Positions 9,777 to 36,962 of a DNA stretch of 38,892 bases are shown one piece after another (positions within the stretch are counted from its first letter, which is position 1; every line of letters begins with the position of its first letter). Both the position numbers and the translations under genes were made by a program. The stretch is from Bdellovibrionales bacterium (GTDB lineage: Bacteria > Bdellovibrionota > FAC87 > UBA2466 > JACKAF01), in the NCBI GenBank assembly GCA_020435295.1, contig JAGQZV010000008.1, positions 1 to 38,892 of the forward strand, given 5' to 3'. The notes under the pieces were generated by a model, which saw nothing but the letters and a program-made list of their open reading frames with translations, searched no databases and had not been told where the DNA came from.

Positions 9777-9827
9777 CTTGATTCCCCTGCTTACGTTACT
9801 TCACTGCGCGTTGCTCGCTACTAAGTG

Positions 9828-9848
9828 CAAGCGAAGTGCCATCGCTTG
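9828..9848. promoter_or_regulatory. Inverted repeat in divergent intergenic region
   Basis: CAAGCGA, seven bases, TCGCTTG: a perfect 7-bp inverted repeat with about 21 bp overall extent, the size of a dimeric repressor or activator site. It lies in the 286-base region (9777-10062) between the divergent small exported-protein gene and the hybrid kinase gene. The rest of this region contains no gene that I can support. Confidence 0.35.
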
Positions 9849-17336: not shown

Positions 17337-18396
17337 CGCCTTTATCTGTTTCCTTGCTTTGGCGCTATCGACCCAGGCCCTGGGACGTTTGCTTACGGAT
17401 GAGCAGAATAACGTCGATGTGTACAAGAACTGCAACCCTGCCGTCGTGAACATTACAACGGTGACGTTAAAGCAGGACTTTTTTTTCCAGGTGTATCCCG
17501 AGCGTGGTGTGGGTTCGGGGGTTGTGGTTAGTCCTGATGGTTACGTGGCCACCAATGACCATGTTTTGGGACAAGCGCAGAAGATTGCGGTTGTGCTACA
17601 CGACAAGTCTGAGTACCCCGCCAAAGTAGTCGGACGCGATCCGGACACGGATCTAGCGCTCATAAAGATCGAAGCAAAGGGAAAGAAATTTAAGTCTCTA
17701 GACTTTGCGGCGGGTCCGCTGCAAGTCGGCCAAAAAGTTTTGGCGATCGGCAATCCGTTTGGTTTAGGAGGCTCACTCAGTGTCGGGATTGTCAGCTCGC
17801 TGGAGCGTGAAATAAAGGCACAGACCGGTCGAACCATAAAGAATGTGATCCAGACGGATGCGGCGATAAATCCTGGCAACTCAGGAGGTCCGCTTCTAAA
17901 TAGCAGTGGCGAGATTATCGGCATTAATTCCCAAATTTTCTCGACTAGTGGTGGGAGCGTCGGGGTCGGATTTGCTATCTCGGGCGACACAGCAAAAAAA
18001 ATAGTGCGCCAGTTGATGCAGTTTGGGCAGGTTTTGCGGCCTTGGTTGGGCGTGGAGGGCGTTGGGTTCTCGGCAGCCCTTTTGAATAACTTTCAAATTC
18101 CGAGTCGTTATGGGGTTATGGTAACGGAAGTCTACCGCGGCAGCCCTGCAGCCGGGGCCGACATTCAACCCGCTACGCGGGAATTTATTTGGGGAATGCG
18201 GGTGATACCTGTGGGCGGCGATCTTATCTATCAGATAGACAATCGTCCGGTGCAAACGCTGGCTGATATTCGCGATTATGTGTTGGATAAAAAGGCAGGG
18301 GAGACCATCGCCATCCACTTCATCCGCAATAAGCGCAAGATGAAGGCGACTGTGAAACTCCAATATCCGCCCGGGGTTACCGCCGGTAGTTTCTAG
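17299..18396 (+). CDS. HtrA/DegP-type serine protease with one PDZ domain
   Basis: Periplasmic quality-control protease of 365 residues. A signal peptide (MISFWLQKLR, then SSAFICFLALALSTQALG) precedes the trypsin-like domain with triad His88 (ATNDHVLG), Asp118 (DTDLALIK) and Ser195 (NPGNSGGPL). A single PDZ domain follows (about 260-355), with GVMVTEVYRGSPAAGADI as the binding strand and AGETIAIHFIR near its end. One PDZ domain makes it DegS-like in layout, but with a cleavable-looking signal. ATG 17299 lies inside the 3' end of the dehydratase gene in another frame, a 38-base overlap, so translation is probably coupled. Its stop shares CTAG with the convergent gene. Confidence 0.92.
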   Translation: MISFWLQKLRPSSAFICFLALALSTQALGRLLTDEQNNVDVYKNCNPAVVNITTVTLKQDFFFQVYPERGVGSGVVVSPDGYVATNDHVLGQAQKIAVVLHDKSEYPAKVVGRDPDTDLALIKIEAKGKKFKSLDFAAGPLQVGQKVLAIGNPFGLGGSLSVGIVSSLEREIKAQTGRTIKNVIQTDAAINPGNSGGPLLNSSGEIIGINSQIFSTSGGSVGVGFAISGDTAKKIVRQLMQFGQVLRPWLGVEGVGFSAALLNNFQIPSRYGVMVTEVYRGSPAAGADIQPATREFIWGMRVIPVGGDLIYQIDNRPVQTLADIRDYVLDKKAGETIAIHFIRNKRKMKATVKLQYPPGVTAGSF

Positions 18397-18833
18397 GCGC
18401 TAGCCGTTGCGCTTTCATCGGCGGAGTAGTTTTCGGCGTAGCGAACTCCCACATTTCCTGTGGAACAATCAATGATGATATTCCGACGAACGTTGCGCCC
18501 GATGTCCTGCGCGCTAATCTCAATCTTGTTTTTCTTCATCCATTGGTAAATGGTGACGACGAGGATCTCTTGGTAATAGCTAAGGCCAAAAATCTTGGCT
18601 TCGAAAGCTGTCTGTTTTCCGTTGAGGTGGGCCTTTGTTTTGTTGAGTAAGGTATCAAGCTTTTCGACTAGTTCACGCGTTGTGTGCGACGCTTCGTGCA
18701 AGACCACTGCGCACCCCTCCAAGCTGGGGTGGTGGAAGACGATGAGTGCATTGCGGTTAAGTCGGATAGCGACCTTAGACGGTTTTTTGAAAAAATACGC
18801 CCCTGGGTCTCGAAGTTTGATTAAATTTTCCAT
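18393..18833 (-). CDS. CheD-like protein with an altered active-site loop
   Basis: Probable divergent member of the CheD family (chemoreceptor glutamine deamidase). Residues ~53-83 (LVEKLDTLLNKT ... FEAKIFGLS) match the CheD helix and AKIFGG block. ISAQDIGRNVRRNIIIDCSTGNVGV matches the CheD C-terminal strand pattern (DtGG..GR.v.F...tG.v). Cys41 in EGCAVVLHEASH may be the nucleophile, but the usual GGxxHxMLP segment with its catalytic His is shortened or missing, and the GG after AKIFG is lost. Activity is therefore uncertain. It sits downstream of a flagellin gene and a GAF-domain gene on the same strand, in keeping with motility. Starts at ATG 18833; the stop shares CTAG with htrA. Confidence 0.55.
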   Translation of the reverse strand: MENLIKLRDPGAYFFKKPSKVAIRLNRNALIVFHHPSLEGCAVVLHEASHTTRELVEKLDTLLNKTKAHLNGKQTAFEAKIFGLSYYQEILVVTIYQWMKKNKIEISAQDIGRNVRRNIIIDCSTGNVGVRYAENYSADESATASA

Positions 18834-18847
18834 AAGAGTTTTTAGGC

Positions 18848-19483
18848 TTAGATTAAGTCTACCACTACCGGCGCAAGCTCTAAAGCCAGTTCTTCCAGTC
18901 GCCTGGCATCCTGCTCCGTAAAAGCCGCGGGCCGATGGGAGTCGACGTCAATCTCGCCAATGGCCTTGCCAGAAGCGTCACGGATGGGGACCACAATTTC
19001 TGACCGCGTTCTGAAGTCGCATGAAAGGTAACGTGGATCAGCGCCTACCTCTGGAATATTCAGAGTCTTGTTTTCCTGTACGGCTGCGCCGCAGATGCCG
19101 CTGGCTGACGGGATAATCTCGTGAGGGGATGGGCTACCCCGGAAGGCAGCAAGGTGAAGCGAGTCGCCCTTGAGAACGTAAACTCCGGTCCAATCGTAGT
19201 GGGCGTTGGCTTGGTGTAGTTGTTCCACTATCTGGTCGAGTTGGATAGCAGCGGCTTCGGAGCAAGAGGCAAGCAACGCCCCAAGTTGAGCGGCAAGCTG
19301 AATAACGGCGGTGCGATCACTTTCAGACACGTTTTTGGGGTATCGAATGGAAGCAAGTGGTTTGCCGGCAAAGGACACGGGGATTTCGGTGTCAGCAGCC
19401 GCGACAGTGCTTTGCACCCACTCTAGTTTCAAAGATTGGGCGGCCAAACGCCGCTCAATGTAGGCCCTCAAAAGAGTTTCCAT
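18848..19483 (-). CDS. GAF-domain protein, free methionine-(R)-sulfoxide reductase-like
   Basis: Protein of 211 residues. The C-terminal GAF domain (about 85-208) matches fRMsr: YDWTGVYVL, GICGAAVQENKTLNIPEV (Cys131), DPRYLSCDFRTRSEIVVPI (Cys155) and GEIDVDSHRPAAFTEQD. The SEIVVP block and the two aligned Cys residues are those used in free Met-R-sulfoxide reduction. The first ~80 residues are an extra domain not in the ~160-residue fRMsr enzymes; they contain a GKPLASIRYPK segment and look like a partial GAF or effector-binding region. It may protect against oxidation or sense free methionine sulfoxide. It lies 14 bases upstream of the CheD-like gene on the same strand. Confidence 0.72.
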   Translation of the reverse strand: METLLRAYIERRLAAQSLKLEWVQSTVAAADTEIPVSFAGKPLASIRYPKNVSESDRTAVIQLAAQLGALLASCSEAAAIQLDQIVEQLHQANAHYDWTGVYVLKGDSLHLAAFRGSPSPHEIIPSASGICGAAVQENKTLNIPEVGADPRYLSCDFRTRSEIVVPIRDASGKAIGEIDVDSHRPAAFTEQDARRLEELALELAPVVVDLI

Positions 19484-19526: not shown

Positions 19527-20012
19527 TTAGCCGTTTAAAAGCTTTAGCACTGTGCTAGGAGACTGATTTGCCGCGGACAAGACCATCGTGCCAGCCTGGC
19601 GAAGCATTTCTCGTTGCATGAGATCCGTCGACTCCGAAGCCATGTCGGCGTCCAAGATTCGGGATTGAGCGGCGGATAGATTCTCGATCTGGATGTTGCC
19701 AGAGTTGATCGTTGTTTCCAAGCGAGACTGAGACGAACCGACGCGTGCGCGCACAGAGTTGATATCGAAGATAGCTTCGTCGATGATTTCTAGGGAGTCT
19801 CGAGCGCTATCGCGGTGACTAAAATCTAGTCCGTCGACGTTGAGGCCGGATGCAGTAAGATCCAGATTTCCTGGATCGAAAAGGATACGGTCGGTGTCTT
19901 CGTCGTTATCCTTACCGACCTGAAATTGAAGATTGAGTTCTTCACCAGCCAGAAGAGGGTCCTGGCCAATAAACTTTGTGCTGTAGGCAATACGATCCAC
20001 TTGACGTTTGAT
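19527..20012 (-). pseudogene. Flagellin C-terminal part, downstream of an in-frame TAA
   Basis: Continues the flagellin reading frame without any shift after the TAA at 20015-20013. It encodes the rest of the N-terminal coiled coil (IKRQVDRIAYSTKF), a short variable domain, and the conserved C-terminal D0/D1 region: NSVRARVGSSQSRLE, then ILDADMASESTDLMQREML and QAGTMVLSAANQSP, ending VLKLLNG. The natural start of this piece is only a GTG at 20000 with no ribosome-binding site, so it is unlikely to be made separately. Joined to the upstream part it gives a normal flagellin of 279 codons. A family comparison suggests that the stop replaces Gln (CAA to TAA). Confidence 0.85.
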
Positions 20013-20366
20013 TTATTCGACTTCGTACATGATCAAGGGTCGTTCTCGATCGCTTACTGTGTCCGTCGCCGCTTGCATCGCAAGTTCACGTAAGCGGATA
20101 AGCATATCTGAAATTTCGTGGGTACCACCCTCGTAGACCTGCACCAGCGACAGACCGTCTTCGGCGTTGCGTACGCCCTGCACTAGAGAGCGGATGTCTG
20201 CACGAAGCTGATCTGAAATTGCGAGCCCGGCAGCGTCGTCGGCAGCCCGATTAATGCGCTTTCCGCTTGAGATTCTTTCGTACGTTCCGCGAAGTGAGCG
20301 ATCGGTACGATTAAGGTTGAACTGAGCATTTAACGCTGGAACGTTCGTGCGTAGCGTAAGTGCCAT
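20013..20366 (-). CDS. fliC: Flagellin N-terminal part, truncated by TAA
   Basis: Encodes the conserved flagellin N-terminus, 117 residues: MALTLRTNVPALNAQ, LNRTDRSLRGTYERISSGKR, INRAADDAAGLAISDQLRADI, and the start of the coiled coil up to RPLIMYEVE. It then stops at TAA where flagellins continue with QI. A strong GGAGG lies six bases before the ATG. Truncated flagellin without its C-terminal D0 helix cannot be polymerised or recognised for export in the normal way, so unless the stop is suppressed or is a sequence error this copy is inactive. Organisms of this group usually carry several flagellin genes, so loss of one can be tolerated. Confidence 0.9.
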   Translation of the reverse strand: MALTLRTNVPALNAQFNLNRTDRSLRGTYERISSGKRINRAADDAAGLAISDQLRADIRSLVQGVRNAEDGLSLVQVYEGGTHEISDMLIRLRELAMQAATDTVSDRERPLIMYEVE

Positions 20367-20787: not shown

Positions 20788-21429
20788 ATGAGTAAACTTC
20801 CTCGCGTACTGATAACCGGCGGCCCCACCCGTGCCTATCTAGACAGAGTGCGGTTCTTGAGCAATGTGTCGTCGGGAGAGCTAGCCTTTAGGCTGTGTAC
20901 CCGCTTGCGGCAGCACCGCGCTCGGGTGGCGGCAGTGGTTGGGCCGAACTGCTTTGAATTTCGCCGTCTCAAGTTGACTCACTACGTTCCTGTAGAAACT
21001 ACTGAAGAGATGGCAGCTGCGGTGTATAAATTATGCCGGCAGTTTAAGCCGGACTATGTGGTGTTTTCTGCGGCAGTACTGGACTTTGTTCCGGCCGAGT
21101 GCCTGGAGGGGAAGGTTACTTCGAAGGGGGATTGGACGGTGCGGTTGAAGCCGTCGCCAAAGATCATCGATGAAGTAGCTGCCCGTTTTCCTACGATCAA
21201 ACGCATCGGTTTCAAGCTCGAGTGGGAACCTCAAGCGGACAAAATGGATTGGGGAGCCAAACTTCTTTCGGAAAAAGGTCTAGACGTCTTGTGTCTAAAC
21301 TACCTTTCACAGATCAACAAAAAGGCCCACCCGGCACTCCTTTTTTCTCGAAAACAAAAGCCGGCGCGAGCAAAGACGAAGAAAGAAATTGCGGATTGGT
21401 TAACGTGGTACATTTTTGCCGACCGTTAG
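20788..21429 (+). CDS. Stand-alone CoaB-like protein (phosphopantothenate-cysteine ligase domain)
   Basis: Protein of 213 residues matching the C-terminal half of bifunctional CoaBC. ITGGPTRAYLDRVRFLSNVSSGE is the nucleotide-binding signature (family: TaGGTrEpiDpVRfisNrSSG). VETTEEMAAAV, DYVVFSAAVLDFVP and KIKKSPK-like region LKPSPKIIDEVA are further CoaB blocks. The flavin decarboxylase half (CoaC) is absent. Family members condense 4'-phosphopantothenate with cysteine in CoA synthesis. The usual G before the second TR is changed to P (GGPTR), so it may be a paralogue with another substrate rather than the housekeeping enzyme. The ribosome-binding site before the ATG is weak. The stop overlaps the convergent sigma-54 regulator stop by four bases. 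Confidence 0.7.
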   Translation: MSKLPRVLITGGPTRAYLDRVRFLSNVSSGELAFRLCTRLRQHRARVAAVVGPNCFEFRRLKLTHYVPVETTEEMAAAVYKLCRQFKPDYVVFSAAVLDFVPAECLEGKVTSKGDWTVRLKPSPKIIDEVAARFPTIKRIGFKLEWEPQADKMDWGAKLLSEKGLDVLCLNYLSQINKKAHPALLFSRKQKPARAKTKKEIADWLTWYIFADR

Positions 21430-22391
21430 ATGGGAACTTCTTTTTGGTAACGCGCCAGCTTGTTGTACAGAGTCTTTACCGTAATCCCCATGGCATTGGC
21501 CGCCTTGGTCTTATTGCCGCGAAAGTGTTCCAATACTCGAAGAATATGACGGCGTTCAACATTCTCCAGCAGGAACGTGGCTGCGCCCGAAAAGTAATCC
21601 ATCTCCAGTCCGGGAGACTTAATGTTGAAGGGGATATCGTTTTCTGTGATGGTTTCGGAGTCCACCAGAATCTTGAAACGCTCGACAGTGTTTTGTAGTT
21701 CGCGGACATTACCCGGCCAACGGTAGCGCTTTAGAATCGCCATGGCAGAGGCAGTGATGCGAAGGGCAGAGTTCTCCGCTCCCAAAAAGGATTGAATCAG
21801 AAGTGGGATGTCGTCCGGACGTTTGCGAAGGGGGGACAGCCGGAGGCTAATCGTATTGATTCGGTAGTATAAGTCTTCTCGAAACTTTCCCGCTTTTACT
21901 TGGGACTCTAGGTCTTTGTTGGTCGCCGAAATTACCCGGACGTTGACTTTGATGGGAGCTTTGGCGCCCAGGCGGTGGACTTCCCCCTCTTGCAGGAAAC
22001 GCAGCAGTTTGGCTTGGGCCTCCAATCCCATTTCTCCTATCTCGTCTAGAAATAACGTCCCACCGTCTACGGCCTCGACGAGCCCGATTTTTTGGGTTAT
22101 CGCGCCCGTGAACGCGCCCTTCTCGTGCCCGAACAGTTCACTCATGAGCAAGTTTTCCTGCAAAGCACCACAGTTGATTGAAAGAACGGGGCGAGCGTGT
22201 CGTCTAGAATGCCGGTGGATGTGCTTGGCGACCACTTCCTTGCCCGTTCCGCTTTCGCCTTGGATGAGTACGGTTGCCTCTGAGCCCGCAATTCTCGTGG
22301 CCATCTGCAAAAGATTCAGCATCGTGGGGTCTTGCGTGACAAATTGCGTACCTAGACTTGGGGCCGAACGGCCCGCGCTGGAATCCAACAT
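21426..22391 (-). CDS. Sigma-54-dependent activator lacking a sensory domain
   Basis: Bacterial enhancer-binding protein of 321 residues made of only the AAA+ core and a Fis-type DNA-binding domain. Walker A GESGTGKE (45-52), the sigma-54 contact loop GAFTGA (92-97), Walker B GGTLFLDEIG (110-119), and arginine-finger region FREDLYYRI are intact. The C-terminal helix-turn-helix is RGNKTKAANAMGITVKTLYNKL. There is no receiver, GAF or PAS domain before residue 20, so control must come from expression level or a partner protein as with PspF/HrpR types. Start: ATG 22391 follows GGGGGG closely; a GTG at 22433 is in frame but lies inside a hairpin. Its targets are unknown; flagellar genes are one candidate because of the neighbouring flagellin. 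Confidence 0.88.
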   Translation of the reverse strand: MLDSSAGRSAPSLGTQFVTQDPTMLNLLQMATRIAGSEATVLIQGESGTGKEVVAKHIHRHSRRHARPVLSINCGALQENLLMSELFGHEKGAFTGAITQKIGLVEAVDGGTLFLDEIGEMGLEAQAKLLRFLQEGEVHRLGAKAPIKVNVRVISATNKDLESQVKAGKFREDLYYRINTISLRLSPLRKRPDDIPLLIQSFLGAENSALRITASAMAILKRYRWPGNVRELQNTVERFKILVDSETITENDIPFNIKSPGLEMDYFSGAATFLLENVERRHILRVLEHFRGNKTKAANAMGITVKTLYNKLARYQKEVPI

Positions 22392-22429
22392 ATCCCCCCA
22401 AAAACCTATGTAGCCCAAAAAGCGAAGAT

Positions 22430-22447
22430 CCACCTCCCCATAGGTGG
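22430..22447. promoter_or_regulatory. Inverted repeat upstream of the sigma-54 activator gene
   Basis: CCACCT, six bases, AGGTGG: a perfect 6-bp inverted repeat. On the minus strand RNA it would fold over a GGGGAGG ribosome-binding-site-like sequence and an in-frame GTG. It may be an operator or a structure that hides the first start codon. Confidence 0.3.
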
Positions 22448-22497: not shown

Positions 22498-23571
22498 TTA
22501 TACGGCGTGGCTGGACGCGTTGCGTCGCGTTAGGCGGCGGAATAGAGAGCCCATGCTTGCGCGCAAGCGCTGCCACAGAAGCTGGCAGAGCCGTGGCGCA
22601 TAAAGCGTGGTGCAAAACCCCAGCGTTCGCGCTTGCAAGGGGAGTCGGTAGTAAAACCGTCGAGTTTGCAGTGAAAAATTGCTGTTGAACTTTAGTGCTA
22701 GAAGCTTGGAAACTAGGTGGCGCGCCAGCAGCGGGTTTGCCGGCAGGACGTACCCGTCCCTTCCGATCGGAAACGCGTCCAGTTGGCGGTAGCAGGGCTC
22801 CACGGCGCGCGGCACTTTCATGGCTTCTGCGAGTGCGTAAGGAAAACTTACTGTTCCCAAAAAGAGTCGCGCTCCTCGGACTAGCGATGCCAATTCCAGG
22901 TGGTTCTTAGTCTCTACCCACTGCGCGCCCGGTAGATCTAGCTCCGCTTCTTGTGGGTGCCCAACGAAAAGGATGGGACCTAAGCCTGACAGCAGCGTTT
23001 TCCAATAGTGTTTGGGATAACTCCGCCAGCGGGGCGTGAGTGAAACCACGATCGTATCTTTCACCGAGTCATTGGCGGGAGCTTGAAGCCATGCTTCCTC
23101 GGGGTTTATGTGCAGTCCTTGAGAGGCAGCATAGATCTGCGCAAGATGCACCGGACTTTCTTCAGAAAACCACCGCAAGCGATGGGGTAGCTTTTGCAAT
23201 ACCGGCGCGACGAAGCGGCGATCGACTAAGTGAGCGCGATCCAAGTTATAGTGAATGCCTTCGATGCTCCACGCCCGCTCCAGGGGGAGATCACATTCCG
23301 AAACGCTGACCTTGGACATATACGGTTGGTGCAGCAGGAGTGGGATCATCTCTTGGGCCGCCCGAAAAGTAAGTGTGCGCCGGGGATTCTCGCAATCGGT
23401 ATAGGCGTTCAGGATGAGGTGGTTGATTCCCAGTGCGCGGCACGTGGGAAGAGAGTAAATGACATCGCCCAAGCGCCCGCTGTGAATAGCGGTGCGTTCC
23501 GAGCGGAAAATGGCTTCTGGTGCTTCTACCACTTCCGTGCGAAGCCTGGGAATGTGAACGTTCCAACTCAC
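22498..23571 (-). CDS. GT9-like glycosyltransferase (heptosyltransferase fold)
   Basis: Protein of 357 residues with features of the ADP-heptose:LPS heptosyltransferase family: SGRLGDVIYSLPTCRALG near the N-terminus (the G-x-GD-hh motif) and a C-terminal nucleotide-binding half with ILFVGHPQEAEL, then LELASLVRGARLFLGTVSFPYALAEAMKVP. The usual D/H catalytic residues are not clear, so the donor is unknown. The start is GTG 23571, four bases after the stop of the upstream pyruvyltransferase-like gene; starting at an earlier ATG at 23709 would overlap that gene by 134 bases. The C-terminal tail is very basic (LWQRLRASMGSLFRRLTRRN), consistent with binding to the inner membrane surface. Confidence 0.72.
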   Translation of the reverse strand: MSWNVHIPRLRTEVVEAPEAIFRSERTAIHSGRLGDVIYSLPTCRALGINHLILNAYTDCENPRRTLTFRAAQEMIPLLLHQPYMSKVSVSECDLPLERAWSIEGIHYNLDRAHLVDRRFVAPVLQKLPHRLRWFSEESPVHLAQIYAASQGLHINPEEAWLQAPANDSVKDTIVVSLTPRWRSYPKHYWKTLLSGLGPILFVGHPQEAELDLPGAQWVETKNHLELASLVRGARLFLGTVSFPYALAEAMKVPRAVEPCYRQLDAFPIGRDGYVLPANPLLARHLVSKLLALKFNSNFSLQTRRFYYRLPLQARTLGFCTTLYAPRLCQLLWQRLRASMGSLFRRLTRRNASSHAV

Positions 23572-23575
23572 GGTC

Positions 23576-24592
23576 TTAGGAAATCTGCCTTTCCGCGGGG
23601 CCGATGGGGGCATTGCGAGCCGGAAGGACCTGCCGCCACTGCTCTCGGATTTTCTGCTTCCAGCTTTCGATCCCCGCGGCTGTATGTGTTCGGCCAACGA
23701 TCGCTTCAAATTGTTGGTTCAAGGATTCTAACGTAGCGTATCGGATGAACGGAAGCTGTGCGAACTCCAGTTCGTTTGGAGGGGTTTCTGAAACAAAAAG
23801 AGCGATTCGCCCCACAGAATTAGCCAAATGTGCGCAAGTCAGGTTGTTGGTAACAACTAGATCGGTGGTGGCCAAGAATCTGGGATATTCTTTTGCATCA
23901 AAAGAATAGTGAGTTCGTTCGCCAAACATACTCGAAAACCGCATGAATTCGTCCACTGTAGGGCAGAAAACCTGAAGATCGTACGAATCGGAGCTGTGTT
24001 CGATAAATCTGCAAAGTTCCCGCAAAAAGGTCTGGTGGTTGGGCGAGACTCTTGCTTGGTGGTCGTCGATGACAAAGCCGATGCGGGGCTGAGTATTGGC
24101 GGCTACCGTTTGTGTCCTGGCGGCAAAAAGTGACGGGCAGGGTAGCATGGCCGCCTCTAAGCCGTACTGGCGAAAATAGTTTTTGGCGGCAATGTCACGC
24201 GCCGTGATAACTGTCGAACGTCGCTTAAAACAATGCAACTCATCTTTATTGAGAGCGCGGGCCTCTTCCGGTAAGCCTAGGCCGAGTGCGAACAGCGGGA
24301 TCTTCGATCGGGCGACCAGATGATAAAAAGTTTCCAACCCGCGGTTGTGCCAGGTGGCGGATCCAGCGATGATAGCCATGCTAAATGGGATCAAACTCTG
24401 GTGGTGGTAGGAGTTGGAATAAACCGTGCGTCGGCGGCGCGAACCATCAGGAAGCAATAGATCCGGATTCTTGTCAAAGAGGACCCAGTTTACCGGTGGT
24501 GCTAGTACGTCTTGCAGCAAGTTTTGGATCCCTTGCAAGATCCACTCGTCTTCGGGATGCCATTGGCGCGATGAGGCAGCGAGGATATTCAT
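23576..24592 (-). CDS. Polysaccharide pyruvyltransferase family protein
   Basis: Protein of 338 residues resembling the PS_pyruv_trans (CsaB/WcaK-like) fold. The blocks are MAIIAGSATWHNRGLETF (glycine-rich loop), SKIPLFALGLGLPEE, RRSTVITARDIAAKNYFRQYG followed by AAMLPCPSLF, and late FLATTDLVVTNNLTCAHLANSVG. In the family this enzyme transfers pyruvate from PEP onto cell-wall or exopolysaccharide sugars. The match is by motif order and general appearance. It sits between an SGNH hydrolase gene and the GT9-like gene, suggesting that all four act on one surface glycan. Confidence 0.68.
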   Translation of the reverse strand: MNILAASSRQWHPEDEWILQGIQNLLQDVLAPPVNWVLFDKNPDLLLPDGSRRRRTVYSNSYHHQSLIPFSMAIIAGSATWHNRGLETFYHLVARSKIPLFALGLGLPEEARALNKDELHCFKRRSTVITARDIAAKNYFRQYGLEAAMLPCPSLFAARTQTVAANTQPRIGFVIDDHQARVSPNHQTFLRELCRFIEHSSDSYDLQVFCPTVDEFMRFSSMFGERTHYSFDAKEYPRFLATTDLVVTNNLTCAHLANSVGRIALFVSETPPNELEFAQLPFIRYATLESLNQQFEAIVGRTHTAAGIESWKQKIREQWRQVLPARNAPIGPAERQIS

Positions 24593-24636
24593 ACGTAGCT
24601 CTCTTCGGCTGCAAGTGGAGCGGGATTTAGTGCGGT

Positions 24637-25887
24637 TTAGCGTCTAGCAATATTAATGTGGCGTGCCATCTCGCCCGCGATGAACTCATTGAAGGCGGGG
24701 CTGTAATGCACATCGTCGACGATGACGCGCTTGTCGAAACCAAAGGTGCGGCACAAGTCGCCCAGAAAACGGAAATGGGGACGTTCGACCGTGCGCATAG
24801 CCGTGTAAAGCGGAACCATCTTGTGGGTGTAGTGCGTGGGGAGCGGCTGGCTGTACTTTCCACTTTGGCAGTCGAAGGCGCGGTTGGGTTGCCAGAAGTA
24901 GTAGGCCTGGATCTTCTTTGTGGCAGAAATCGCGTCTATTTGTGTCAACGTATTTAGGTAGCTTTCTTGCACGCGCTTCACCCAATCGGGCAAGGCATAG
25001 GTGTGGGAGGAGGGGTGGCGGTCTACCTGGAAGTTACGTACCCATTTGTTTAGGTGCCGGCGCTTGAAGTAGTTGAGGACACGGAAAAGCGGCAACATTC
25101 CCGGCAAAGATGTGGTGCTGATTTGGGCTTGATCCCAAAGTTCGGTCATCTTGTCGTTCCAATATGGGATTTCGTACGGGGAATCCGCGTGCAATACGTT
25201 GACCCCGTCCAGGAATACAACCACATCCGGTTTGTACCCGGCGTGCAGCAGACGCTCAAAAAGGACCATTTCCTGGTACCAGGAGTTAAATCCCTTTCCA
25301 AAGTTCGTTACTTCTACGCGGCGCCAGTTTCCTTGACGACGTAGTTTTTGCTGCAACTCACGTTCTAGGAAACTTGGAATGGTTTCTTCGTCTCCTACGT
25401 GCCAGCCGAAAGTAGTGCTCCCGCCGAAGGCAAATACACGGAGCGGGTATTTGGATTCTTGTTTGTGAGAGATTCGTCTGGATACAAAGCCTTGTTCATC
25501 CGCCTGTAGGTTTAGTGTCGGGCTCGAAAAAGTCGGCTCGGTAAAGTGGGTATAAGGGAAATAGGCGTAGCCTTTTTGACCCAAATCAAAGAAGTCATCG
25601 AGAACTTGTTTGACGTGGTTGGGATCCACGTGTTCGTAGGAGCGCAGATCCGTCCACATCATCTGATGGCCATTGCGTTTGGGCGTGAGTAAGGGCTGGC
25701 CCGGGCGCAGGCGGATTCTATCCGCATTGGCTTGGTCTTGGCGCGTGTGGACTTCGGCATCGCGCAGGACGGAAGGAAAGAACAAAAACAGGTTGAGTAT
25801 CAGGAAGAGCAGACCGGTATTAGTCAGAATGATGCTCACACTTTGGTAAAACTTGTTGAGCTGGGTTTGTTTCGGTTTGCGTGCCAT
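24637..25887 (-). CDS. Membrane-anchored SGNH-family hydrolase, copy 2
   Basis: Protein of 416 residues with one N-terminal membrane helix (about 17-40) and a periplasmic SGNH/GDSL domain. Block I is FAFGGSTTFG with Ser157 as nucleophile. The Gly block is NFGKGFNSWYQEM, block III is FLDGVNV with Asn, and block V is DDVHYS (Asp391, His394). Such proteins are O-acetyl or acyl transferases or esterases on glycans, as in AlgX/AlgJ. No MBOAT partner is present in the window. It is a clear paralogue of the next gene upstream (shared RLLHAG, HYSPAF, WQPN motifs). The ATG overlaps the stop of the upstream copy by one base (TAATG). Confidence 0.8.
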   Translation of the reverse strand: MARKPKQTQLNKFYQSVSIILTNTGLLFLILNLFLFFPSVLRDAEVHTRQDQANADRIRLRPGQPLLTPKRNGHQMMWTDLRSYEHVDPNHVKQVLDDFFDLGQKGYAYFPYTHFTEPTFSSPTLNLQADEQGFVSRRISHKQESKYPLRVFAFGGSTTFGWHVGDEETIPSFLERELQQKLRRQGNWRRVEVTNFGKGFNSWYQEMVLFERLLHAGYKPDVVVFLDGVNVLHADSPYEIPYWNDKMTELWDQAQISTTSLPGMLPLFRVLNYFKRRHLNKWVRNFQVDRHPSSHTYALPDWVKRVQESYLNTLTQIDAISATKKIQAYYFWQPNRAFDCQSGKYSQPLPTHYTHKMVPLYTAMRTVERPHFRFLGDLCRTFGFDKRVIVDDVHYSPAFNEFIAGEMARHINIARR

Positions 25888-27080
25888 TAGCTTGGGTTCG
25901 ACGCCAGCTGGCGCAGTCCTTTATAGTCTCTGCGAATTTCCACGGCGATGGCCTGGGCGATTTCTTCAGTGAAAGCGGGGCTGTAGTGCAAGTTGTCGAC
26001 AAACAAAGGGCCCTCTACTTTTGATTGTTTGCACAGACTCGACAGGTTGAGAAAGCGTTTTTCTCTGACTCCCCGCATGTTTTTGTAAACTTCGGGGACA
26101 ATTTGTGAATATTCCTCTGGAGCCTGATTTTCCTTGGTGCACTCATAGGCAGCGTTGGGCTGCCACACGAAATAGGGAGTGACCCCGAATGCAGTTGCGA
26201 CGGCTTCGCGTTGATGCAGAGTTTCGAGGTACGAAACTTTGGTTTTCTTTGCTTCTGTTTTCAGATCAGGTTTATCTTTGAGGTACGCATATCGTTTTTC
26301 CATCACCCAGCTCATCTTTTTTTCTACGCGGTTCCTGTTCAGAATATTCAGCACTCTAAAGAGAGGGATAAACTCAGGCAGGTTAGTGTGCCGCACGCCT
26401 TGTTGAGTTTCTTCCCAGAGGCGAGCCGCCTTCCACGTCGACGTGGGATAATTCCTAGACCATCCGTTGTTTTGGATGGATGTTCCGTCGATGAAGATCG
26501 CTAGTTGGGGAGTGTTGCCGGCATGCAAGAGGCGTTGGAAAAGTATGTGGGCTTGGTACCAAGAGAAACCACGTACGGAATAGTTGCGGACGGAAACTCC
26601 CTCTCCCAGAATCTCTTGCAGTTTAGCGCCCAAGGTCCACTCGTCCGCTAGGTGAACGCCGAAACTTGTGCTGCCGCCAAAAAGAAAAATTCGAATCGGA
26701 GCGTCTGCGATTTCGGGGGAAGTGCCCTTGCGGTATTCAAACCCGTAGTCATCGCGCAGGACATTGAGTGAGGCGCTTTCAAAAGGGGGATCCCCAATTT
26801 GGGTGTATGGCCGATACACCGAACCCATCGCGGCAAAATCGTCGAAGTCATTGAGAACCTGACGCAGGCGCTCAGAAGGAAGCCCATGGTAAGCCCTCAG
26901 ATCGACTTGGCTTCGTGCGAGGCCTGCCTCGGAAGACGTATCTGTTAGCCTAAGGAAAAGTCCGAGGAGCATGTTTAGGGCAATGAGCGCGACGAAGAAG
27001 TTCGTGAACGTATAGGCGATAGACTGGTAACGCGAACTGAAATTATGCTGGGAAATCCAGGTTTTGACTCGCAGCCACAT
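25887..27080 (-). CDS. Membrane-anchored SGNH-family hydrolase, copy 1
   Basis: Paralogue of the downstream gene, 397 residues: N-terminal cytosolic ~22 residues, a membrane helix (about 24-45), then an SGNH domain. Block I is FLFGGSTSFG (Ser137), the Gly block NYSVRGFSWYQ, and block V VDNLHYS (Asp362, His365). In block III the Asn of copy 2 (DGVN) is replaced in DGTSIQNN, so the oxyanion-hole residue may be shifted. Start: ATG 27080 has GAGGG seven bases upstream and places the helix as in copy 2; earlier in-frame ATG or TTG codons at 27125 and 27143 have no ribosome-binding site. First gene of a four-gene surface-glycan operon. Confidence 0.78.
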   Translation of the reverse strand: MWLRVKTWISQHNFSSRYQSIAYTFTNFFVALIALNMLLGLFLRLTDTSSEAGLARSQVDLRAYHGLPSERLRQVLNDFDDFAAMGSVYRPYTQIGDPPFESASLNVLRDDYGFEYRKGTSPEIADAPIRIFLFGGSTSFGVHLADEWTLGAKLQEILGEGVSVRNYSVRGFSWYQAHILFQRLLHAGNTPQLAIFIDGTSIQNNGWSRNYPTSTWKAARLWEETQQGVRHTNLPEFIPLFRVLNILNRNRVEKKMSWVMEKRYAYLKDKPDLKTEAKKTKVSYLETLHQREAVATAFGVTPYFVWQPNAAYECTKENQAPEEYSQIVPEVYKNMRGVREKRFLNLSSLCKQSKVEGPLFVDNLHYSPAFTEEIAQAIAVEIRRDYKGLRQLASNPS

Positions 27081-27114: not shown

Positions 27115-27227
27115 AGTGCGGGCATGGCGGTGCCAGCACTCAAAGGATCATCGGAAGAAAAGCGGCAGAAATTTAGCGCCTTATGCAGATTCTTGACGAT
27201 TTTGCCTGAAGCTGGTCATTGTTAGGG

Positions 27228-33148: not shown

Positions 33149-34168
33149 TTAGAATAGCTTGGCGATGCCTAAGGCGATGACTAGGTACAGAACCAACGTC
33201 GAGGCATCAGCGATGGCTAATACCACGGGCCCAGCAGCTATCTGAGGATCGACTTTCATTCGGTGGAAAAGTGCCGGAAAAACGTGGCCCAGCGTGCAGG
33301 CAGAGATAAAGCCCACCAAGATAGTAAGGGTAATACTGAGCGATAGGGCGAGGGATCCTTTCCACAAATACACGGGGCCTGCGATACAAATGCTGCAACC
33401 GATAGCCAGCAGGACCGCCACAGTGGCTTCTCGAGCAAACAGTTGGCGCAAGCGTGGGCGTTTGGCGACGCGGTGCAGGTGTCCGATCACGATGGACATC
33501 GTTTGCATGCCCATGCTCTCTGTGATGATAAGCAAGATCGGCACAAAGGCGAGGTACAATACTGCATCCTTCAAGCCGCTGGCGAGATCATGAATGAAAA
33601 AAGCCGAGATTGCGCCTCCCAACAGATTGATAAGTAACCAAGGCAGCCGGCTCCAAGCAAGTTCAACTGGGCTGTCAACGGGCTCACTCTTGATTCCAAG
33701 TAGCTCGAATAATTCTCCTCGTGAGCGTTCCTGATAGAGCTCCTCCAGGTCTTTTTCGTACTCATCGATGAGCTCATGCGCGTGGAGTACGCCGACAATT
33801 TGACCGTCGCTATTGGTGACCGGTAGACTTAGGAAGCGATCTTTTGAAAAAATTCGGTATGCTTCTTCAATCGCCATGTCTTCAGAAACCGAAACTACTC
33901 CTTTGGCGTAGATATCTGAAACTTTCTGGTCGTCTGACGAGACCAGAAGGTTACGCACCGACACAACACCACTGAGCTTCTTTTGTTCGTCCACGACGTA
34001 GATATAAAAAATTCCGTGGCGGGCGGATTGGCGAATGACGCGAATGGCTTCGCCCACCGTCAAGTAGAGGGAAATGGTGATGAAGTTGGGGATGCAAAGT
34101 TCCTTCACCCGGTGCTTGGAGTGAAGGACGGGTTTTTGACGGCGTGCCATTAAAGAAAAATGACTCAT
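33149..34168 (-). CDS. MgtE-like divalent cation transporter, lacking the N domain and with altered filter
   Basis: Inner-membrane protein of 339 residues. Two CBS domains (about 25-140, with GVVSVRNLL and GVLHAHELID) precede five membrane helices of the MgtE type. The MgtE N domain (superhelix) is missing, so the CBS pair starts the protein. The pore motif normally GGNxGxQ reads TESMGMQT here, while the TM5 Asp is kept (VVLAIADASTL). Mg2+ selectivity may therefore differ. Start ATG 34168 overlaps the tldE stop as ATGA; the region upstream of it in the same frame is inside tldE. Last gene before a terminator. Confidence 0.8.
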   Translation of the reverse strand: MSHFSLMARRQKPVLHSKHRVKELCIPNFITISLYLTVGEAIRVIRQSARHGIFYIYVVDEQKKLSGVVSVRNLLVSSDDQKVSDIYAKGVVSVSEDMAIEEAYRIFSKDRFLSLPVTNSDGQIVGVLHAHELIDEYEKDLEELYQERSRGELFELLGIKSEPVDSPVELAWSRLPWLLINLLGGAISAFFIHDLASGLKDAVLYLAFVPILLIITESMGMQTMSIVIGHLHRVAKRPRLRQLFAREATVAVLLAIGCSICIAGPVYLWKGSLALSLSITLTILVGFISACTLGHVFPALFHRMKVDPQIAAGPVVLAIADASTLVLYLVIALGIAKLF

Positions 34169-35565
34169 CGTTGACTTCCCGTTACAGAAATTCCGTCCGC
34201 AATAAGGGTGGGACATTCTTCGGAAGCGTTGATGACGACACGCTCTTTAGAAAGACCAAAAAGCCCGTCTTTAAGCGCCTCAAAGATATTCCCCGAAATC
34301 AGCGTTTCTTTGCCCACGTACGCAGGTTTGCCATCGATGCACCAATCTGCTGCTTTGGCGACGCCAGAAAAATCTCCCGTAACGGGATCCACGTTGCCGG
34401 AAAAACGGTGAATGAGAAGGTACTCTTTTTGCTGTGCGGCCGCTCGGACCATCAATGCGGAACGTGGTTCGATCCCGCCCTCCATGCAAAGACAGAACGC
34501 TCCGACGCCAGGCAGGCTGCTCGGCCCGCCTGCTGCGTGGCCGTTTGAGTGCGCCTGACCTAAGGCCTTAGTGGCATAGGAGTCGAGCAGAAATTCGCTT
34601 AGAACTCCTTTGTTGAGTAAGGTCGTGTTCCTCGTAGGTATCCCTTCACGATCAAAAAGTGCAGCGCCGGTGCGATCAGAGAGCCAGGGAAGATCTTGGA
34701 CACTAATAGCTGGATGTAGAACGCATTGGCCCAAGTCGCCCGCGCTCCAACGAGTGCTACCTTCCACCACGTTGCGTCCGTTAAAGTGGTAGGCAAGTCC
34801 GGAAAGTAATATCTGAGCTACCGCTCGGGGCGAAAATGCCACTAAGCCCTTATAGCTTTTGGTTGGCCCCGTTTTTAGGCCCTCTAGAAGCTGGCTGCAA
34901 AAATCGCGGGTCGAGAGAAGCAGTTTCTCTTGAACCTGAATTGGATTGCGCGCCATTTCCTGAAAGTAGTCAAAACTGGTGATTTGGTTTCCGTCTACGC
35001 CCATTCCCATGAGAGACCAGTACGCGGCGTTCTCGGTGGCTCGCATGAGTGTTCCCTTGGAGTTACTTACGAGCGTTGCGCCAGCGACAATATCGATACT
35101 GCCTTCATTTAGACGGAAGCGCTTGTCGCGAGTGGCTGCATCTTTCAGGAGCCGTGCCCATTCTTTTTGAGTTTGAAGCGACACCTGAAAAAGCTCTTTG
35201 TCGAACAAATTCAATTTGGTGTCCGAAGAGAGATTGGGTCCGGCCTCAATACTGATGAAGGGGTTTTGGGGAGATACCGCAGCTATTTGCACTGAGCGTG
35301 CAGCGATCTCCTTCAACTCTTTTGGATCTACGGTGTTGCACGACGAAAAGCCTTGCTTGCCTTCCACCAAAGTGCGGATTCCAAAAACGTAATTGTCGTC
35401 AGTCGATGCCAGATGAAAATCCTGCTTTTCCAATGTAATCTTTGTTTTGTGAAGGAAGGTCCCGCAGACCTCGACCGCTTCGGCCCCAGCTTTTAGGGCG
35501 TGCGACTGTAGCTCTAAAGCCGTGTTTTCTAATTGTTGCTCTTCAGCTTTTAGGTATTTGCTCAT
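34165..35565 (-). CDS. tldE: TldE/PmbA family protein
   Basis: Non-metal-binding partner of TldD; in other bacteria TldD-TldE forms a heterodimeric protease that degrades unfolded peptides and matures microcins and similar peptides. The 466-residue protein shows the family C-terminal blocks: FDREGIPTRNTTLLNKGVL, LDSYATKALGQAHSNGHA, FSGNVDPVTGDFSGVAKA and KETLISGNIFEAL. There is no HExxxH motif, as expected for TldE. It overlaps tldD by four bases at its start and the MgtE-like gene by four at its end. Confidence 0.9.
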   Translation of the reverse strand: MSKYLKAEEQQLENTALELQSHALKAGAEAVEVCGTFLHKTKITLEKQDFHLASTDDNYVFGIRTLVEGKQGFSSCNTVDPKELKEIAARSVQIAAVSPQNPFISIEAGPNLSSDTKLNLFDKELFQVSLQTQKEWARLLKDAATRDKRFRLNEGSIDIVAGATLVSNSKGTLMRATENAAYWSLMGMGVDGNQITSFDYFQEMARNPIQVQEKLLLSTRDFCSQLLEGLKTGPTKSYKGLVAFSPRAVAQILLSGLAYHFNGRNVVEGSTRWSAGDLGQCVLHPAISVQDLPWLSDRTGAALFDREGIPTRNTTLLNKGVLSEFLLDSYATKALGQAHSNGHAAGGPSSLPGVGAFCLCMEGGIEPRSALMVRAAAQQKEYLLIHRFSGNVDPVTGDFSGVAKAADWCIDGKPAYVGKETLISGNIFEALKDGLFGLSKERVVINASEECPTLIADGISVTGSQR

Positions 35566-36962
35566 TCTTGAACCCCGCCTACTAGGGCTTTGCAGCGGAT
35601 ATAGGGGCCACCGGCGTCGACTTTGGCCGGCTGTCCTTTTCCGCAGTAACCTGCCCCCAAGTCCAACTTGAACTCTTGGGAAACAGCATCGACGGTGGAA
35701 AGTACCTTGAACGCCTGTCCTGAAATGGTTGCGCCACGCAATAACTCGGTTACTTTTCCGTTCTTGATTCGTGAAACATTTTGCGCCCCGAACATAAATT
35801 CACCGGTAGAGTCTGCTTGTCCACCTCGGGGGCCGTCCACGAGATAGCCATCTTCAGTACTGGCGATGATTTCCTCGATGGATTGTGCGCCCGGACGGAT
35901 ATATGTGTTGCGCATCCGAATGAGGGGTTCGTCGTTATAAAGCCACGCACGCGCGTTCCCGGTGGGCTCGACGTCAAATGCGGCGGCGGACTCGCGGTTA
36001 TGTAAGTACGATTTTAGAACACCCTCTTTGATGATTTCCGTACTTTGAGTGGGTACGCCCTCATCGTCCACGAGCAAGTCGCCACCCCCATGCGGGGCAC
36101 CGTCGACGCGTCCGCCATCTACGAGAGTCACGAGCGGGCTTGCCACCGTTTGACCTAATTTGCCCGCCGCGACTGAGCCAGAAAGCACGAAGTCCGCTTC
36201 GACTGTGTGTCCGATGGCTTCGTGAGACAGCAGGCCTACCATTGCGGGAGATAAAATCAAAGTGGCCAGCCCCCCCTGCACGCGAGGAGCACCGACGAGA
36301 TCCACCGCCAGCCGAGCGGCTTCCTCGCTTAGTGAGTCGATGGAATGATCTTCAAAGAGACACTCCCAGGAGCCGGTGCGCCCAACTGTCTGCGTGGCCG
36401 AGGCTTTTTCTCCCGCCTTTCCCGCGAATGCAGAAAGCCTAAATTCGTTACGCACGAGACGAGAAAGCGCGTCGGCTCCATCGCTTGTAATGACAATTTT
36501 GTCTTCAAAAATCTCATTATAGTAGCCGGAAGCGGTTTCTATCGCCGGTGACTTGTCCCTCGTTTGTGCTTCTGCTCGCCGTACCGCTTCAAGTTTTTCT
36601 TCGAGGCTCATTTCAGAAAGCGACTCGTACCCAGAAAGCACAAACTCCCCCTTGGCAAGGCGCACTGGTGGCAGCGTTTTTACTTTGGATTGCTTTACTT
36701 GGCTGAGAGAGGTGCCACATTCGATGGCGCGCTTTAGTGACTTCTCCAGGCTGCTGTCGGACAAGTCAGAAGTAGCCGAGAATCCCCAAGCGCCGTTAAC
36801 AAGCACGCGGATTCCAACTCCCGAAGTAACGGACGATTTTAGCTGCTTTACCAAACCCTTCTGAACTTGGAGCGTTTGTACGTGCCTTCGATGGTATCTG
36901 AATTCCACCCAGTGCGGGGAACGAGACGCTAAAAGTTTAAGTTTGGCTGAGAGGTCTTTCAT
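35562..36962 (-). CDS. tldD: TldD metalloprotease
   Basis: Catalytic partner of TldE. The zinc motif HEAIGH (247-252) lies in LLSHEAIGHTVEADFV. Other family blocks are YLHNRESAAAFDVEPTGNAR and EPLIRMRNTYIRPG, and the C-terminal FKLDLGAGYCGKGQPAKVDAGG. Length 466, equal to the partner. The ATG overlaps the upstream membrane protein stop (ATGA) and the stop overlaps tldE. No ribosomally made peptide substrate gene is evident beside it. Confidence 0.92.
   Translation of the reverse strand: MKDLSAKLKLLASRSPHWVEFRYHRRHVQTLQVQKGLVKQLKSSVTSGVGIRVLVNGAWGFSATSDLSDSSLEKSLKRAIECGTSLSQVKQSKVKTLPPVRLAKGEFVLSGYESLSEMSLEEKLEAVRRAEAQTRDKSPAIETASGYYNEIFEDKIVITSDGADALSRLVRNEFRLSAFAGKAGEKASATQTVGRTGSWECLFEDHSIDSLSEEAARLAVDLVGAPRVQGGLATLILSPAMVGLLSHEAIGHTVEADFVLSGSVAAGKLGQTVASPLVTLVDGGRVDGAPHGGGDLLVDDEGVPTQSTEIIKEGVLKSYLHNRESAAAFDVEPTGNARAWLYNDEPLIRMRNTYIRPGAQSIEEIIASTEDGYLVDGPRGGQADSTGEFMFGAQNVSRIKNGKVTELLRGATISGQAFKVLSTVDAVSQEFKLDLGAGYCGKGQPAKVDAGGPYIRCKALVGGVQE

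Follow-up and report, generated by a model that had tools for sequence, protein, structure and literature searches.

The four genes described here encode variants of known enzymes, and as a set they are without match in the relatives searched. We put the chances at about even that they make up a composite unit, in which a pair of SGNH proteins would act on the ester-linked acyl groups of an envelope glycan with the help of an MBOAT acyltransferase working in trans, next to a separate cytoplasmic pair devoted to sugar transfer.

Results

The window, i.e. the whole stretch of 38,892 nucleotides that was analysed, stems from a groundwater-type bacterium. The genes of interest and their neighbours are the following:

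25887..27080, minus strand: SGNH copy 1, 397 residues from the ATG at 27080 (alternative start TTG at 27143)
24637..25887, minus strand: SGNH copy 2, 416 residues, overlapping copy 1 by one base (TAATG)
23576..24592, minus strand: gene 3, a PF04230 (polysaccharide pyruvyl transferase-like) protein of 338 residues
22498..23571, minus strand: gene 4, a GT9-like (GT-B) protein, likely start GTG at 23571
21426..22433, minus strand: sigma-54 activator (AAA+ plus Fis-type HTH), 64 nt past gene 4
20788..21429, plus strand: DFP (CoaBC C-terminal-type) gene, a conserved neighbour of flagellin across the order
19527..20366, minus strand: flagellin gene interrupted by an in-frame TAA (codon 118), a conserved anchor of the neighbourhood

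The initial annotation had placed four open reading frames here, and all four were found on the minus strand, running from 27080 to 22498 in the order SGNH copy 1, copy 2, PF04230 protein, GT9-like protein. At the junction of the SGNH genes (ctAATGg), the last A of the stop codon TAA doubles as the A of the ATG. Gene 4 likely starts with the GTG directly past the gene 3 stop, ATG 23613 and TTG 23709 being alternatives. A recent horizontal gain of the four genes was considered and rejected, since their GC and GC3 are ordinary for the window (GC of gene 4 is slightly high). A candidate sigma-54 promoter ahead of copy 1 was discarded as well: the spacing in TGGCACCGCCATGCC is one base short and a scan returned no good site there. 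Predicted sigma-70 promoters were no commoner than chance. The split flagellin is not explained by a frameshift, translation giving an in-frame TAA instead.

Judged by their sequences, the two SGNH copies are diverged tandem paralogues (33% identity over 407 aligned residues, E=1e-65), so that the duplication and the shared junction base reported before were both borne out. The same holds for the membrane anchor: each copy has a single predicted N-terminal hydrophobic helix, preceded by a tail with K/R and no D/E, and no AT3 domain is fused to either. Membership of the SGNH family follows from sequence and, for copy 2, from the fold of a weak model (pLDDT 54), whose top Foldseek matches (E as low as 4.6e-7) were SGNH esterases, TesA and CgnD. 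Copy 2 matched PF13472 with E=4e-6, below the Pfam cut-off. The best PDB profile match of both copies was CgnD (8a2n; E=1.2e-13 for copy 1, 1.5e-8 for copy 2).

The catalytic Ser, Asp and His are kept in both copies, within intact blocks I (GGST) and V (D[DN]xHYSP); they correspond to Ser137 and the DNLH at 362-365 in copy 1 and to Ser157, Asp391 and His394 in copy 2. The oxyanion hole differs. In block III, copy 1 reads FIDGTS, with Ser in place of Asn, whereas copy 2 (Asn230) and its closest kin have DG[VL]N; within its four-member clade only copy 1 carries this Ser. The initial annotation had noticed this exchange correctly and taken it as a sign of divided roles. The difference between the active sites stands, but taken alone it is no sign of a new division of labour, since the oxyanion hole of the transferase PatB1 works without the block III Asn (PMC9487903). 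This secondary cell wall polysaccharide acetyltransferase of the DHHW family makes no use of a block III Asn, as copy 1 cannot either, and a block II Arg replaces it; the Arg in block II of copy 1 (NYSVRG) is a putative counterpart. A second difference had been overlooked: the block II Gly at N+5 is kept in copy 1 and is F, N or D in copy 2 and its orthologues. This Gly is a main-chain donor that is absent from other SGNH enzymes too (PMC9487903). For these proteins, sequence cannot separate a transferase from an esterase.

The tree places copy 2 together with single-copy orthologues from two relatives, G007 and G009, the four-row clade including copy 1 receiving 99/96; it does not place the origin of copy 1 within this lineage as against earlier. 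No second SGNH gene lies beside either orthologue, the G007 gene having a contig end on one side. Searches of genome contigs returned no match for copy 1 and, for copy 2, just a short match besides the two relatives already known; a plasmid search gave one match (23%). Kin SGNH genes are placed in glycan clusters with GT4, DegT, methyltransferase and PMT genes. The surface-glycan flavour of the initial annotation thus found support, while its dedicated four-gene system did not.

Gene 3 exceeds the gathering score of PF04230 (E=2.3e-12, 47.9 bits against a cut-off of 25.3), like the ketal-pyruvyltransferases CsaB and Pvg1p; its G007 homologue, at 18.4, stays below. Both family members, unlike CsaB and Pvg1p, lack RxH, the signature of PEP binding (R306/H308 in CsaB, PMC10435577). 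In a three-row alignment this site reads NNLTC in gene 3, HLASY in the G007 protein and TRFHF in C165, another PF04230 protein encoded in this genome. The label pyruvyltransferase-like therefore holds as a family assignment, and pyruvylation is unsupported. Gene 4 can be called GT9-like from a profile comparison and from the fold of its model. It matched no Pfam or NCBIfam family, PF01075 included, and hhalign against GT9 proteins of the order gave E=7e-4 at a probability of only 26%; the five top Foldseek matches of its low-confidence model (pLDDT 47) were the GT9 heptosyltransferases WaaC and WaaF (E=4e-7 to 7e-6), and its N-terminal GRLGDVIYSLPTCRAL resembles the start of GT9 proteins. The likeness noted before is thus suggested by the fold of a weak model, but by no family threshold, and use of ADP-heptose is putative. 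A PDB sequence search with genes 3 and 4 yielded nothing meaningful.

The four genes, expected to recur together if they formed a system, did so in 0 of the 368 other genomes searched in the phylum. The pair of glycosyltransferase and PF04230 genes is found in 2 of 369 genomes only, the source genome and G007, and in both it adjoins the flagellin/DFP block. In G007 no SGNH gene stands beside this pair, its single SGNH gene being located elsewhere in the genome; the single SGNH gene of G009, a genome without the pair, adjoins a GH26-like gene. Other relatives have different sugar genes in the slot beside flagellin, e.g. for a HAD-nucleotidyltransferase or GT2. The flagellin block occurs throughout the order; in 13 of 15 genomes flagellin is present and the pair is not, so that the pair is dispensable for flagella in general. 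The sigma-54 activator adjoins DFP also in relatives without glycan genes, and so belongs to the old block and not to the system. Since the modules stand apart in relatives, we regard the locus as the place where two modules meet, in a slot next to the flagellin block whose sugar genes vary.

No MBOAT gene was found within the operon, nor next to either of the two closest SGNH orthologues. The initial annotation was thus right about a missing acyltransferase partner locally, but not genome-wide: the source genome (G000) encodes, at C301, an MBOAT ending in FVYFQF, which conforms to the C-terminal FXYXXF acyl shuttle (PMC12148441), as well as seven AT3 matches, all away from the window SGNHs. 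The MBOAT is flanked by one SGNH gene on the same strand and a divergent one, the latter distantly paralogous to the window copies, and the same arrangement recurs in G001 and G002. The earlier proposal had named an adjacent MBOAT gene in relatives as evidence against it, and one stands here beside a distant paralogue in the source genome itself. A near-full-length SGNH of the window type occurs in four genomes of the order; all four have a shuttle MBOAT, which 5 of the 15 genomes possess (hypergeometric P=0.004, ignoring phylogeny, for 15 related genomes of differing genome size). The C301 MBOAT already comes with its own SGNH genes, and no evidence links it to the window pair in particular.

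Discussion

In the explanation that we favour, the duplicated SGNH gene would be one module and the GT9-like plus PF04230-like pair the other, joined in one composite transcription unit. Each SGNH protein would be held in the inner membrane by its N-terminal helix, with the catalytic domain in the periplasm, where the Ser-His-Asp triad may transfer or remove O-acyl groups of an envelope glycan. The most likely acyl source would be the MBOAT at C301, the acyl group passing from acyl-CoA to the MBOAT Tyr, then to the SGNH Ser and finally to a glycan hydroxyl. Copy 2, which is akin to the single-copy orthologues of the relatives, would keep the main activity, and copy 1, with its changed oxyanion hole, may have become a specialised transferase, an esterase or a helper, in the manner of AlgJ/AlgX or PatB/Ape1. 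The second module would be cytoplasmic and most likely serve sugar addition, with flagellin or a lipid-linked glycan as the acceptor, rather than pyruvylation. Because export of flagellin runs through the flagellar channel, the protein is not exposed to the periplasm, and the two modules are unlikely to share one substrate.

The presumed system shares features with described ones. Peptidoglycan O-acetylation by PatA/PatB/Ape1 involves an MBOAT and relies on a three-gene operon with divided roles for an SGNH transferase and an O-acetyl esterase (PMC12148441); a FXYXXF shuttle MBOAT is likewise present in the source genome, but the window operon has none, and its candidate partner would act in trans only. 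For alginate O-acetylation by AlgI/AlgJ/AlgX, AlgJ and AlgX are two SGNH-type periplasmic proteins of similar topology and separate roles (PMC4148444). The window also holds two SGNH-type proteins, which in contrast are tandem duplicates and belong to a different SGNH family, whose Ser...DxxH order is the usual one, and no alginate genes were recognised near them. Both systems are precedents for two SGNH proteins with divided roles. The initial annotation's statement, which tied the known SGNH acylation systems to an MBOAT, was incomplete, AT3-SGNH systems being known (PMC12148441, PMC9487903).

Several other readings of the locus have to be weighed. The GT9-like and PF04230-like pair might glycosylate flagellin, with the SGNH genes as chance neighbours of unrelated function. 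We consider this rather unlikely: the two genomes with the pair have it next to the flagellin/DFP block, in a slot filled by other sugar genes in relatives, yet it is missing from most genomes with that order-wide block. This reading concerns the second module only and is compatible both with our favoured explanation and with one in which both SGNH proteins work alone in the periplasm as esterases, cleaving acyl groups off glycans with neither an acyl donor nor an MBOAT or AT3 partner. The latter we judge unlikely. The lack of an acyltransferase gene in the operon and at the sides of the two single-copy orthologues points that way, as do the mostly hydrolytic top fold matches of copy 2 (acetyl xylan esterase and TesA among them) and the GH26-like neighbour in G009. 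Two weak arguments speak against it, namely that family members of the same order adjoin shuttle MBOATs and that a membrane anchor beside glycan-assembly genes suits transferases better.

The dedicated system proposed at the outset, with all four proteins acylating and pyruvylating one glycan, appears improbable; common strand, tight spacing and the TAATG junction are in its favour, but the unit is absent from every relative searched, the PF04230 protein lacks RxH and the sugar-transfer pair does without an SGNH neighbour in G007. Slightly more improbable still is a serine hydrolase role on a modified peptide or protein. CgnD, a leader-cleaving hydrolase of the crocagin pathway (PMC10070186), shares the SGNH fold and the Ser-His-Asp triad, is the closest solved relative in sequence and also appears among the fold matches. 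That it cleaves a peptide makes an ester or glycan substrate less than certain. Unlike CgnD, the window SGNHs have a predicted N-terminal membrane helix and kin placed with glycosyltransferases, and no precursor peptide, maturation or other RiPP genes were recognised among their neighbours. Least probable of all, and very much so, is a reading in which the two copies are the subunits of a glycan acyltransferase or acyl exchanger that works by itself, without any membrane acyltransferase; copy 1, devoid of the block III Asn, and copy 2, devoid of the block II Gly, would complement each other and move acyl groups from acceptor to acceptor in the periplasm.

Should SGNH proteins whose genes lie far from those of membrane acyltransferases indeed borrow a shuttle MBOAT in trans, as our favoured explanation supposes, several glycans could depend on a single MBOAT, and annotation rules based on gene neighbourhood would miss such acylation enzymes. 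The SGNH pair itself offers a natural comparison of two types of oxyanion hole on related backbones.

Results

Four minus-strand genes span positions 27080 to 22498 of the window, as the initial annotation had placed them, and its one-base junction between copy 1 and copy 2 is also correct, the stop of the former and the start of the latter having one base in common (TAATG).

Genes of the operon
25887-27080, minus strand: copy 1, SGNH protein, which may begin further upstream at TTG 27143
24637-25887, minus strand: copy 2, SGNH paralogue of copy 1
23576-24592, minus strand: gene 3, PF04230 protein, separated from copy 2 by a 44-base gap
23571 (probable GTG start) to 22498, minus strand: gene 4, GT9-like, starting four bases past the gene 3 stop

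Alternative longer starts of gene 4 would overlap gene 3, and a sigma-54 activator gene lies on the same strand 64 bases past its end. Far from the operon, an exact sigma-54 promoter consensus (TGGCAC-N5-TTGCW) occurs at 9826-9841 (minus strand). Two neighbouring related genes of 466 aa were also seen at 34165-36962 (minus strand), the first of TldD/PmbA type by Pfam and the second 24% identical to it.

Copies 1 and 2 align over 407 residues with 33% identity (E=1e-65). Each has one N-terminal hydrophobic helix with only positive charges ahead of it, which fits an inner-membrane anchor carrying a putative periplasmic domain. Both retain GGST and D[DN]xHYSP. The Asn of block III, as initially proposed, is changed in copy 1 (DGTS) and kept in copy 2 and its closest kin (DG[VL]N), whereas the usual block II Gly is present in copy 1 and absent from copy 2 and its orthologues. 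These changes are no proof of a loss of function, since block II contributes a main-chain NH and the known transferases PatB1, streptococcal OatA and XOAT1 do not follow the usual oxyanion-hole pattern (PMC9487903). The closest solved protein by profile is CgnD (E=1.2e-13), a hydrolase that cuts the leader off the crocagin core (PMC10070186), and a low-confidence model of copy 2 (pLDDT 54) matched SGNH esterases, TesA and CgnD.

Gene 3 scores above the PF04230 cut-off. Its positions for the PEP-binding RxH (R306 and H308 in CsaB; PMC10435577) hold other residues when aligned to a second PF04230 protein that this genome encodes (G000:C165), as they do in the homologue from G007, another genome of the order. 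This test is strong but not final, because the alignment behind it has three rows and takes its anchor from the D-[LIV]-x-[LIV] strand ahead of the motif, and because the CsaB H308S variant retained some activity. Gene 4 had no family match. An hhalign comparison with GT9 proteins of the order gave E=7e-4 (probability 26%) and a weak model (pLDDT 47) ranked WaaC and WaaF first, so that GT9-like is the best available name, short of proof.

Fourteen further genomes of the order were searched; the window's own genome is the sole member of its family among all those covered. Near-full-length SGNH proteins of the window type were found in G007 (41%) and G009 (42%), and more distant ones are encoded in G002 and by a second G009 gene. 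The two closest are each single-copy in place, on contigs recorded publicly as groundwater MAGs labelled Deltaproteobacteria. That of G007 stands at a contig end and adjoins an FHA-domain gene, with putative L,D-transpeptidase sequence past its stop (read by eye); that of G009 has an ankyrin-repeat gene on one side and a GH26-like gene on the other. Both group with copies 1 and 2 in one well-supported clade (99/96), and the tree does not settle the timing of the duplication. Elsewhere in G007 (contig C437, 9976-13452), three consecutive SGNH genes lie within a sugar cluster that also holds a GT4, a DegT aminotransferase, a methyltransferase and two many-helix proteins, each of roughly 600 aa, that matched no Pfam family; there is no MBOAT next to the three.

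Discussion

The initial annotation's surface-glycan operon is not to be read as a conserved four-gene system. Among 369 genomes of the phylum, the GT9-like gene occurred only in G000, the window's genome, and G007, as did the PF04230-like gene, one weak short match aside. In G007 the two again stand side by side in this order, with no SGNH gene, and immediately next to flagellin and its neighbour DFP, a CoaBC C-terminal-type gene. Genes 3 and 4 are thus a module separate from the SGNH pair. The flagellin-DFP block is order-wide, is bordered at its far end by genes of CheD, trypsin, IDH, mdh and sucC type and, in several members, has a sigma-54 gene adjoining DFP. The slot beyond varies (window 20788-22433; loci L141-L148 and L029), being filled by a HAD-nucleotidyltransferase fusion in G002 and G004, a GT2 in G014, or the GT9-like/PF04230 pair. 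Given this variation and the SGNH-free pair of G007, the window operon is two modules meeting in a variable sugar-gene slot, which may be a flagellar glycosylation slot.

The window's flagellin gene (20013-20366 and 19527-20000, minus strand) has an in-frame TAA at codon 118, which may reflect a sequencing error, a pseudogene or readthrough, and is otherwise open and flagellin-like throughout. Nearby, the CheD-like protein (18393-18833, minus strand) has 146 aa, against ORFs of about 300 aa at the corresponding place in most relatives; 18848-19483 holds a GAF-domain ORF of its own.

The claim that an acyltransferase partner is missing stands for the operon itself but not for the genome, which has two PF03062 matches. 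One, in the locus at 8387-12069 of contig C301, is an MBOAT with C-terminal FVYFQF, in agreement with the acyl-shuttle pattern FXYXXF of MBOAT-SGNH systems (PMC12148441). An SGNH gene lies on either side of this MBOAT; one is encoded on the MBOAT strand, and the other is divergent and distantly paralogous to the window copies (28% against copy 1). G001 and G002 share this layout, with MBOATs ending in FIYFDF and a divergent SGNH from another branch.

Shuttle MBOATs occur in 5 of the 15 genomes of the order, including all four with near-full-length window-type SGNH proteins (P=0.004 by counting, with no correction for relatedness). The second class of acyl supplier, AT3 proteins, is uninformative either way, as all 15 genomes have them (seven matches in G000).

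Most likely, the SGNH pair would carry out acyl-ester chemistry on an envelope glycan in the periplasm, with acyl groups supplied by a shuttle MBOAT encoded in trans and the two copies partly specialised. The main rival is that the pair would act as stand-alone esterases. Genes 3 and 4 would form an independent cytoplasmic sugar-transfer pair beside them, which may serve flagellin. The parts of the operon are of known kinds; their combination looks lineage-specific.
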